Positions 72 to 59,515 of a DNA stretch of 64,000 bases are shown here, one piece after another. The stretch is from positions 1 through 64,000 of the forward strand of contig NZ_JAMSLW010000007.1 in assembly GCF_024643285.1 (NCBI RefSeq), read 5' to 3'. Each line of letters begins with the position of its first letter. Position 1 is the stretch's first letter. The position numbers were made by a program, and so were the translations under genes. The notes beneath the pieces were generated by a model. It had not been told where the DNA came from and made no database searches. It saw nothing but the letters and a program-made list of their open reading frames with translations. The DNA is from Parapedobacter lycopersici. GTDB lineage: Bacteria; Bacteroidota; Bacteroidia; Sphingobacteriales; Sphingobacteriaceae.

Positions 72-248
72 ATATCATTACCATATTTTTTAACCCCAAA
101 ACGCTATTGCCTATAAATCAGTCACGAAATTTTTTCCAAAGGTGCAATTTTGCCCTTTCGGACCACCATCCGCCGTTCAGACGGCCATCGTTCACCCCAC
201 AGTCCGTTGTCGGCAGCCGGCCGGCAATCCGCCGGGTTTGGTTCGCCA

Positions 249-292
249 TGCGTCCGCATTGCGTCCACCGTGAGTCCACGTTGAGTCCACCT
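249..292. repeat. Four tandem 11-bp TGAGTCCAC-type units
   Basis: Four consecutive 11-bp units at 249, 260, 271 and 282 read TGCGTCCGCAT, TGCGTCCACCG, TGAGTCCACGT and TGAGTCCACCT. The period is not a multiple of three, which argues against coding, and is close to one DNA helical turn. The same unit recurs at 58490-58565. No known element name can be assigned. Confidence 0.75.
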
Positions 293-471
293 TTTTCCGA
301 ATAAACATGGAATTACCCCGGGCGCAATGCGCACGCACCGTGCTGTTACACCGACCCTATATATACGGATTGCCGAACCGCAACCAAATTGGTTCCGGGG
401 CCTCACCTATAATCCTGCGGTTGCTATACCCATCAATTTTTGTACTTTTATACCGGATAGCTTATACCATC

Positions 472-1074
472 TTGGAATTACTGTATTATATCGACCTACT
501 CGGCACCGCGGTCTTTGCCATTTCAGGTGCAATGGCTGCCATGCGGCACAACATCGATATTTTCGGATCGGCGTTTACCGGCTTCGTTACCGCGATAGGC
601 GGGGGCAGCCTGCGTGACATCTTTCTGAACCTGCGCCCGGTATGGGTGGATGACGGCAACTACCTGCTGGCAATCCTTGCCGGGGTCATGATTGCCATCT
701 GTTGCACCAAGACACTCTATCAGCTGGCCCGCACACTTTCGTTGTTTGACGCCCTGGGCATCGGCTTCTTTACCATTGTAGGGGTCCAGAAATCGCTGGA
801 TTATGAAAGCAGCGCAATCGCTTCCGTTGTATTGGGCCTGTTTTCGGCCGTAATGGGCGGCGTGATCCGCGACACTTTAATGAATGATACCCCCCTGATT
901 TTCAGGAAGGAGATTTATGCAACAGCCTGCTTAACGGGTGCTATCCTTTTCGCCGTACTCCGATATGCAGGTGTAAGCTACAACCTCAATGCTGCGCTCT
1001 GTGTTACCGTTATCGTGGTGATCCGGCTGGTTTCGGTAAAATACAGGCTTTCCCTGCCCATTGTGGGCGGGTAA
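472..1074 (+). CDS. YicG/UPF0126-type membrane protein (TRIC-like channel family)
   Basis: This is a small integral membrane protein of the UPF0126 family, distantly related to trimeric intracellular cation channels; the physiological role in bacteria is unclear, though glycine transport has been proposed for some members. The family pattern is visible: a first helix with DLLGTAVFAISGAMAA, then GGGSLRD, and a second repeat with GGVIRDTL, giving two similar three-helix repeats plus a last helix. I chose the TTG at 472, which gives 200 aa, the usual family size. The frame is open from 307, but the extra residues look like noncoding sequence. It converges with def, with the two stops 1 bp apart. 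Confidence 0.85.
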   Translation: MELLYYIDLLGTAVFAISGAMAAMRHNIDIFGSAFTGFVTAIGGGSLRDIFLNLRPVWVDDGNYLLAILAGVMIAICCTKTLYQLARTLSLFDALGIGFFTIVGVQKSLDYESSAIASVVLGLFSAVMGGVIRDTLMNDTPLIFRKEIYATACLTGAILFAVLRYAGVSYNLNAALCVTVIVVIRLVSVKYRLSLPIVGG

Positions 1075-58387: not shown

Positions 58388-58822
58388 CAGTCTCGTAAAC
58401 TGGACATTGTCAGGCAATTGAAGTTGACATCCGCTGTTGTCTGCTCAAGCATCACCTCCTCCGGCAACGGTCGGGACGCTGGCCGGCCATGCTTCGGGAC
58501 TGCTTCGGCATGTGTTCGGGGTGAGTCCACCATGAGTCCAGGGTGAGTCCACCATGAGTCCACGTTTTATTGCCTTTTACCGGATACATACTGGACGCAC
58601 CCCGGCAGCACCCTACCCGCACGGTTAACGTTTCCCGAACAACTGTCAAGGGCGTCTTAATGATGCTATTTTGTCATTTCTTTACCGGTACAGCTGTCAT
58701 ATCTATGAAATTTAGTATCTTCGTTGTCAGCCCCGGGCAGCATTTATGTCGGTTTTCACAGGTCGGTATGTTTTTTGAACGGGTTGGATAAAGGATAAAA
58801 AAACGACAAAAACGAACAAATT
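58388..58822. other. Intergenic region carrying the second 11-bp repeat array
   Basis: This 435-bp gap has no supported gene. Short frames here have repeat-driven composition. It contains the 11-bp array at 58490-58565 and a weak -7-like TATCTTCG near 58716 that could serve the metallopeptidase gene. Confidence 0.55.
58490..58565. repeat. Tandem 11-bp array related to 249-292
   Basis: Four clean units at 58522, 58533, 58544 and 58555 read TGAGTCCACCA, TGAGTCCAGGG, TGAGTCCACCA and TGAGTCCACGT; degenerate units TGCTTCGGGAC, TGCTTCGGCA and TGTGTTCGGGG precede them at 58490, 58501 and 58511. The phase is 11 bp except one 10-bp step. It is in the same orientation as the array at the left edge of the window. 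Confidence 0.75.
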
Positions 58823-59515
58823 ATGATTGCAGGATATTGGATTATTTTCATTGGTATTATGCTCGTCAGCATGATCGTACAATGGCGCTTCCGAAGTAAG
58901 TTTAAGAAGTATACCGAAATTCCCTTAAGCAGCGGAATGACCGGCCGGGATGTCGCTCAGAAAATGCTGAATGACCATGGCATCTACGATGTGGATATTA
59001 TATCGGTGGAAGGCCAGCTCACGGACCACTATAACCCCGCGAACCGGACGGTTAACCTCAGCCCGGAAGTTTATAACGGACGCAGTATTGCCGCCGCCGC
59101 GGTAGCCGCACACGAGTGTGGACACGCGGTGCAGCACGCGAAAGCATATTCCTGGCTCCAGTTCCGCTCGGCCATGGTACCGCTGGTCAGCGTAGCCTCG
59201 CGGATGGTGACCTGGGTGCTGATGATCGGTGTGCTCCTGGCGGCTTTTTCCGGAAACATCTGGGTGCTGGCCATCGGCGTAGCGGCATTGGCCGTGACCA
59301 CACTGTTCAGTTTTGTAACCCTGCCGGTGGAATTCGACGCTTCCAAGCGGGCACTGGCATGGCTCGACAATAAAGGCGTTACGCACAGCAGCGCCGAGCA
59401 TGACGGCGCCAAGGATGCCCTGTGGTGGGCGGCCATGACTTACGTGGTAGCGGCACTGTCATCCCTGGTTACCCTGCTGTATTACGCCAGCATGCTGCTG
59501 GGTCGCCGCGACTAA
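58823..59515 (+). CDS. YugP-type membrane zinc metallopeptidase
   Basis: A 230-aa inner-membrane protein of the neutral zinc metallopeptidase (DUF YugP) family. It has an N-terminal helix (YWIIFIGIMLVSMIVQW), the active-site AAHECGHAVQHAKAY (His97, Glu98, His101), two central helices, the conserved TLPVEFDASKRALAWL segment and a C-terminal helix. Physiological substrates are not known; in other bacteria relatives are tied to membrane protein turnover. A terminator follows. Confidence 0.92.
   Translation: MIAGYWIIFIGIMLVSMIVQWRFRSKFKKYTEIPLSSGMTGRDVAQKMLNDHGIYDVDIISVEGQLTDHYNPANRTVNLSPEVYNGRSIAAAAVAAHECGHAVQHAKAYSWLQFRSAMVPLVSVASRMVTWVLMIGVLLAAFSGNIWVLAIGVAALAVTTLFSFVTLPVEFDASKRALAWLDNKGVTHSSAEHDGAKDALWWAAMTYVVAALSSLVTLLYYASMLLGRRD

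Follow-up and report, generated by a model that had tools for sequence, protein, structure and literature searches.

Dispersed inverted repeats built of 11-bp units in Bacteroidota, and a longer form that carries a gene

Introduction

Dispersed intergenic inverted repeats with a gene-linked copy beside one protein family have been described for the REPIN/RAYT (REP-associated tyrosine transposase) system (PMC3116915), where the RAYTs are described as single-copy and incapable of self-mobilization. Tandem units lying upstream of the operon of their binder are found in ParR-parC type II partition and other centromere/iteron systems (PMC5016525). In parC of plasmid R1 the unit is 11 bp long. Among Bacteroidota, the BrickBuilt minisatellite MITE of Porphyromonas gingivalis has tandem 23-nt units inside a miniature inverted-repeat element, with short terminal inverted repeats most similar to those of ISPg1 and ISPg9 and no transposase remnant inside (PMC4596501). 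Multicopy intergenic direct repeats with a 7-nt unit, TAACTGA, are reported for other bacteria, the Beggiatoaceae (PMC4679880).

Here we analyzed a 64,000-nt stretch of Parapedobacter lycopersici DNA (NZ_JAMSLW010000007.1, positions 1 to 64,000; hereafter the window) after an earlier note had pointed to an array of 11-bp units at 249-292. We found that the array is one arm of an inverted repeat (IR), that similar IRs are scattered through the host genome and other Bacteroidota, and that a longer form consists of an IR, a leader and one ORF of about 250-330 aa, which we call the A1 family. The layout resembles REPIN/RAYT in that a gene-linked palindrome is related to dispersed solo palindromes. 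However, the linked gene is A1 rather than a RAYT, the units keep a strict 11-bp phase, no Y1 transposase was found in five genomes, and the A1 gene itself duplicates together with the IR in one relative (genome G006). As in ParR-parC, tandem units precede the gene of a binder, which here is only presumed, but there are two inverted arms, the element is multicopy, and the duplicated 1.2-1.3 kb unit of G006 has room for little beyond the A1 ORF and its IR, leaving no motor (ParM/ParA) gene in the unit. On the tests made, the element is a member of neither system. Below, genomes, contigs of the host and loci retrieved for comparison are numbered with G (G000 is the host), C and L, respectively.

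Results

The arrays are left arms of inverted repeats

The earlier note had described four units with helical-turn periodicity in a noncoding gap, with a second locus in the same orientation about 58 kb away, and this observation is confirmed. A two-unit pattern, TGAGTCCANNNTGAGTCCA, with up to 3 mismatches matches 7 times in the window against 0.33 expected, the largest of 100 shuffles giving 2. Small corrections are needed, as the core TGAGTCCAC is carried by 2 of 4 units in locus 1 and 3 of 4 in locus 2, and the note missed the right arm, the reverse complement of which also runs in 11-bp steps. The stretch is probably noncoding. Mechanical ORFs of 79 and 94 aa overlap it, but it lies upstream of a TRIC-type gene whose conserved part starts at about 472, and relatives lack it. 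The window begins at a contig end, and the gene on the left of locus 1 is not seen. The features of both loci are given in Table 1.

Table 1. Features of the two inverted repeats in the window and their neighboring genes
Coordinates	Strand	Feature	Basis
238..248	+	Locus 1, outer unit of the left arm (TTGGTTCGCCA), in 11-bp register with the array	Sequence; register is 249 minus 11
249..292	+	Locus 1, left arm (the array of the note): four 11-bp units exactly head to tail, at 249 TGCGTCCGCAT, 260 TGCGTCCACCG, 271 TGAGTCCACGT and 282 TGAGTCCACCT	Sequence; pattern count
293..304	+	Locus 1, loop/center (T tract, CCGAATAA)	Sequence and fold; similar T-tract...A-tract center in the consensus of 22 own-genome elements
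305..337	-	Locus 1, right arm: three degenerate units (reverse complement TGCGTGCGCAT, TGCGCCCGGGG, TAATTCCATGT)	Sequence; folds onto the left arm, RNA MFE z -3.44
472..1074	+	Putative TRIC-type membrane protein gene (host gene, not part of the element)	Its orthologues mark the empty site
58490..58521	+	Locus 2, outer TTCGG-type units of the left arm (11, 10 and 11 bp)	Sequence
58522..58565	+	Locus 2, left arm: four TGAGTCCANNN units, with TGAGTCC units at 58522, 58533, 58544 and 58555	Sequence; pattern count
58566..58577	+	Locus 2, loop/center	Sequence and fold
58578..58621	-	Locus 2, right arm: four degenerate 11-bp units (reverse complement TGCGGGTAGGG, TGCTGCCGGGG, TGCGTCCAGTA, TGTATCCGGTA)	Sequence; fold energy not better than shuffles (z 0.05)
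58823..59515	+	Putative zinc metallopeptidase gene, YugP-like (host gene, not part of the element)	Its orthologues mark the empty site

In the whole host genome (3.62 Mb, 22 contigs; the window is the start of contig 20), TGNGTCCANNNTGNGTCCA gives 44 two-unit matches, 27 forward and 17 reverse, against 0 and 0 for the reversed control pattern. The single unit TGAGTCCA is less telling, with 116 matches against 67 for its control. We aligned 22 elements from the host genome and obtained the consensus TTCGG - [TGAGTCCANNG]x4 - TTTT.CCG.AAAA - GGACTCACCCTGGA - CGAA.CAGG. Each array is the left arm of an imperfect IR of roughly 100-200 bp, followed by a T-tract/A-tract center and a right arm of similar, more degenerate units in reverse complement, with TTCGG-type units outside on the left and CGAA.CAGG on the right. 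The spacing is strict: among steps of up to 40 bp between T(G/A)AGTCC units in loci L001-L198, 263 of 270 are 11 bp and 7 are 22 bp.

The host genome carries a second class of long IRs (L031, L032, L034, L035, L038, L041, L044, L051, L053, L056, L060 and L074), with TTCGR units every 11 bp on both arms (up to 12 units), many around a GTGCAATGCATTGCAC-like center, one arm usually being longer and more regular. In 24 runs of five or more units (steps of up to 23 bp), 154 of 179 steps are 11 bp, 14 are 22, and 11 are 10 or 21, each of these the last step of its run. No partner gene for this class was recognized by eye among its neighbors. At L050 (C1, about 621.8 kb), a TTCGG/CGACC-type 11-bp array directly precedes a gene that looks like a DnaQ exonuclease, and a GIY-YIG domain match lies in the same region.

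The elements are scattered, mostly intergenic and lineage-specific

A pattern of three exact units gave 94 stretches in the collection of genome contigs. The 80 listed with titles are from Myroides, Mesonia, Pedobacter, Parapedobacter, Sphingobacterium, Olivibacter and Flavobacterium, all genera of Bacteroidota. Among the 14 without titles, L165 appears to be a chance match (no inverted repeat, unlike context) and was dropped from all counts. In the host's family, 16 of 151 genomes, the host included, have two exact units. Array copies of Myroides sp. N17-2 share up to about 500 bp of flank, the long alignments being at 70-80% identity (89% for L113/L151), and in the four loci inspected (L102, L116, L144 and L152) a TATNTTTG box and a small hairpin with a T run lie just before it. 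No Rfam match at the gathering score was found in the window or in 6 loci.

We next placed 20 host arrays against ORFs of at least 90 aa. Of these, 17 lie clear of any such ORF, two lie under mechanical ORFs and one overlaps a gene end by 34 bp; 13 lie between divergent genes, 3 and 2 between co-directional genes and 2 between convergent ones. A role as terminators was therefore rejected as a general one. The note had named the absence of further copies, or translation of the stretch, as what would speak against it; neither was found. Its interpretation is partly supported, in that the suggested genome-wide intergenic element is supported, while the alternative of a phased protein-binding site is plausible, and adopted below as the most likely role, without binding having been shown.

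Orthologous sites in congeners lack the IR, and both copies are thus lineage-specific. Upstream of the TRIC-type gene, 0 of 7 close orthologues in the genus have an array; for three of them only 275-286 bp of upstream sequence exists before a contig end, which still covers the host's array position (190-223 bp upstream), and one has a single reverse-strand match of the loose motif. The TRIC relatives in genome G087 (31% identity, or fragments with a stop) and the second match in genome G003 were not counted as orthologues. Upstream of the YugP-like gene, 0 of 8 orthologues have any match. In one relative, G057, a different 11-bp-phased IR (L305, center CTTACGTAAG, seen by eye) lies upstream of the TRIC gene orthologue.

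The arms show little or no covariation

As an inverted repeat might act by folding, we compared fold energies with those of shuffled sequences. Locus 1 folds better than 200 shuffles, whereas locus 2 does not. The median z was -1.32 for the 22 host elements (2 below -3), -4.90 for 35 Myroides elements (26 below -3), -1.64 for A1 upstreams (58 and 19), and -0.23 for a control region 500-675 bp upstream of 75 A1 genes (7 below -3). However, complementarity within an element is hardly better than between elements. Of 88 positions, the mean number matched within against between elements was 42.4 v 40.9 for the 22 host elements (104 of 5000 permutations reach the observed mean), 45.5 v 45.4 for the 35 Myroides elements (1733), 42.6 v 42.4 for 10 Mesonia elements (2106) and 50.6 v 54.5 for 8 elements of the T class (4966). 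At 44 positions, the permutation counts were 947 (host, 25.7 v 25.3), 74 (Myroides, 30.2 v 30.0), 3570 and 4998, respectively. A weak within-element excess is present in two of these eight tests. Both arms mostly obey a common unit rather than each other, which speaks for recognition of units over selection on a stem, without excluding a hairpin.

One gene family is associated with the arrays

Comparing the genes beside arrays exposed a single family, A1, aligned from one host member and nine members from array loci of other genomes; these ten proteins were picked because they neighbor arrays. A profile of them finds A1 hits in 13 distinct retrieved array loci, among 157 array loci counted with duplicates, such that most arrays have no A1 gene beside them. 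In 11 of the 13 the array lies upstream of the start codon, in the direction of the gene in 10 and opposite in L172; L171 has only a fragment of the gene, and in L177 a fragment lies 1.2 kb off. The host has two copies, C16:232293-233168, intact and behind a typical array, and C1:273105-273845 (L266), with one stop codon inside and a partly decayed IR upstream. A GIY-YIG endonuclease had been suggested as a partner by one Myroides locus (L116), but was rejected since the host genome has a single small GIY-YIG gene, not beside a TGAGTCC array.

Of 59 non-redundant gene copies of at least 150 bits, 45 have TRAGTCC within 450 bp upstream, 20 of the 59 have it in tandem, and 14 lack it, while 0 of 19 copies below 130 bits have it. 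A1 at 100 bits or more occurs in 27 of 33 array-bearing genomes and 7 of 29 array-free genomes of the family (Fisher p 8e-6); at E<=1e-3 it occurs in 30 of 33, leaving 3 without a detectable A1 gene, and in 14 of 29 (p 3e-4). Five genomes reached twice, and that of L165, were dropped. As these genomes are related and were drawn by different routes, and paralogues are not independent, the p-values overstate the association and are only indicative. Across the phylum, 34 of 296 sampled genomes have A1. A tblastn search with one A1 protein (L120, of Parapedobacter defluvii) found no match in the plasmid or phage collections.

Loci of distant A1-family genes (L218/L263, L222, L325, L328, L330, L332, L334, L335, L336 and L340) also encode a small protein with the motif IYPKD, often divergent from the A1 gene with an 11-bp array between them. 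Pfam and NCBIfam give only weak hits for one of these proteins.

An 11-bp period lies upstream of A1 genes across the phylum

The mean-centered autocorrelation of 400 bp upstream of A1 genes peaks at lag 11 (and 22, 33). At lag 11 it is +0.061 +- 0.004 for the 59 close copies and +0.055 +- 0.007 for the 19 distant copies without TGAGTCC, lag 11 being the top of lags 5-20 in 43 of 59 and 11 of 19. For 27 further loci from across the phylum, found afterwards, the value is +0.030 +- 0.006 (top in 13 of 27), against +0.011 (top in 2 of 27) for their own control 450-850 bp upstream. For 75 stretches 450-850 bp upstream of A1 genes it is +0.001 (top in 4), and for 552 upstreams of other ORFs 0.0001 +- 0.0011 (top in 43). 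This last control left out 45 upstreams carrying an array, in loci retrieved because of arrays; with them the value is +0.0061 +- 0.0014 (top in 85 of 597). The unit differs, for example GTTCAAGTATG in L217 and TTTGATACGGC in L340, yet the step stays 11.

In genome G020, 14 of 20 copies examined have the hairpin core, and its distance to the ATG is 155, 187/188, 207, 221, 232, 286/287 or 320, that is 1 mod 11 in 10 copies, 0 in 3 and 9 in 1. This suggests that arms and leader change mostly in whole units, although these copies are paralogues and not independent. A pattern for the G020 hairpin core finds 8 places, 5 of them beside listed A1 genes.

The inverted repeat and the gene are duplicated together in one genome

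In G006, three pairs of copies are 98.8, 98.4 and 90.2% identical over 1220, 1335 and 1311 bp and then stop abruptly in unrelated flanks. The right end is within a few bases of the A1 stop codon, and in L254/L255 the stop codon itself lies in the flank. The left end is the outer end of the IR in L252/L253, but lies well outside the main hairpin in L254/L255. No target-site duplication was seen by eye at six unit boundaries. These abrupt duplications come from one genome; the 23 G020 copies are about 80-84% alike over gene and leader where compared, and show no such sharp ends. The Y1 transposase profile PF01797 had 0 matches in the five genomes tested (G000, G006, G020, G057 and G045), while 5 of 14 control genomes were positive.

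The A1 protein has no recognized family

No Pfam, NCBIfam or PADLOC family was found for A1 (NCBIfam was run on two close and two distant members), with only stray Pfam and PHROG matches of single members at E 0.01-0.03, and the alignments contain no invariant histidine. An AlphaFold2 model from 7 sequences (pLDDT 81.5, pTM 0.71) predicts three N-terminal strands, two helices and a strand-rich part. Foldseek gave no match at E<=1e-3 in PDB or BFVD, and the best VIA-align score, Z 6.5, may reflect only a common arrangement. The N-terminal part alone modeled poorly (pTM 0.38) and had no useful match. Thus neither a catalytic nor a DNA-binding role is supported by the fold; an arm-type DNA-binding sheet remains a speculative resemblance. 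The lack of an informative relative does not show that the fold is new.

Discussion

We consider it more likely than not that the array at 249-292 is the left arm of a solo, non-autonomous copy of an undescribed dispersed element of Bacteroidota, an asymmetric imperfect IR of 11-bp units whose full form is the same kind of IR followed by a leader and one A1 ORF ending at or next to the element's right end. The analysis itself establishes the anatomy of the IR, its copy number, the empty sites in congeners, the near-identical IR-plus-gene copies at unrelated sites of one genome and the 11-bp arrays upstream of A1 genes whatever the unit sequence. That the A1 protein recognizes the units as duplex DNA, one per turn, and forms an ordered complex on each arm, first on the IR ahead of its own gene (self-regulation) and also on solo copies in the same genome, is inferred, as neither binding nor movement was observed. 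Such binding would explain the strict spacing, the unit sequences that differ between protein subfamilies, the near lack of arm covariation and the arrays ahead of the A1 start codon. The weakest inference is that this complex lets IR-bearing DNA be copied in trans to new intergenic sites with an unidentified catalytic activity, which would explain the solo copies and their absence in congeners.

Of the alternatives, a transcribed hairpin, as an RNA element or a single-stranded DNA cruciform, is unlikely but the strongest. An 11-bp period kept over 110-132 bp suits an A-form duplex, with 11 bp per turn, better than 10.5-bp B-DNA, and locus 1 and most Myroides elements fold well. The excess of within-element pairing is tiny, however, being absent in Mesonia and reversed in the T class, and the weak folding of the host set and of locus 2 and the lack of an Rfam match also argue against it. 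A REPIN/RAYT system or MITE, with palindromes spread by a Y1 transposase or by the transposase of a parent IS, has the same layout of a gene-linked palindrome plus solo copies, mostly intergenic and with lineage-specific insertions. We regard this as doubtful given the absence of PF01797 from the five genomes, of a Pfam, NCBIfam or PADLOC family or an invariant histidine in the alignments of A1, and of target-site duplications visible by eye at the six unit boundaries in G006. Equally doubtful is that the solo arrays are operators forming a regulon of the A1 protein or of another regulator at host promoters. The frequent position between divergent genes and upstream of A1 genes would fit, but the arrays at two host promoters are not conserved in any of 7 and 8 congeners, and the neighboring genes share, by eye, no evident theme.

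Literature searches, limited to an open-access library, brought up no description of this repeat or gene, and passages of PMC4060949 held nothing on it. The note likewise knew of no named repeat with this unit. We regard the system as categorically new, with Y1 as the only transposase searched for that might act in trans. More tentatively, and less likely than not, it may be a self-spreading class of element made of two parts only, a protein family outside all transposase and nuclease families searched and inverted arrays of strictly 11-bp units that it recognizes and that differ in sequence between protein subfamilies while the period stays, with solo arrays parasitizing it.

The association between period and gene rests on a simple periodicity test that others can repeat. 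If our reading holds, a phylum with many environmental and host-associated species carries an unrecognized class of dispersed element with its own protein family, for which Pfam, NCBIfam and PADLOC hold no model and Rfam no match. It would explain a set of intergenic inverted repeats, offer a new DNA-recognition system with an 11-bp step, and raise the question of how DNA is copied to new sites without a recognizable transposase.
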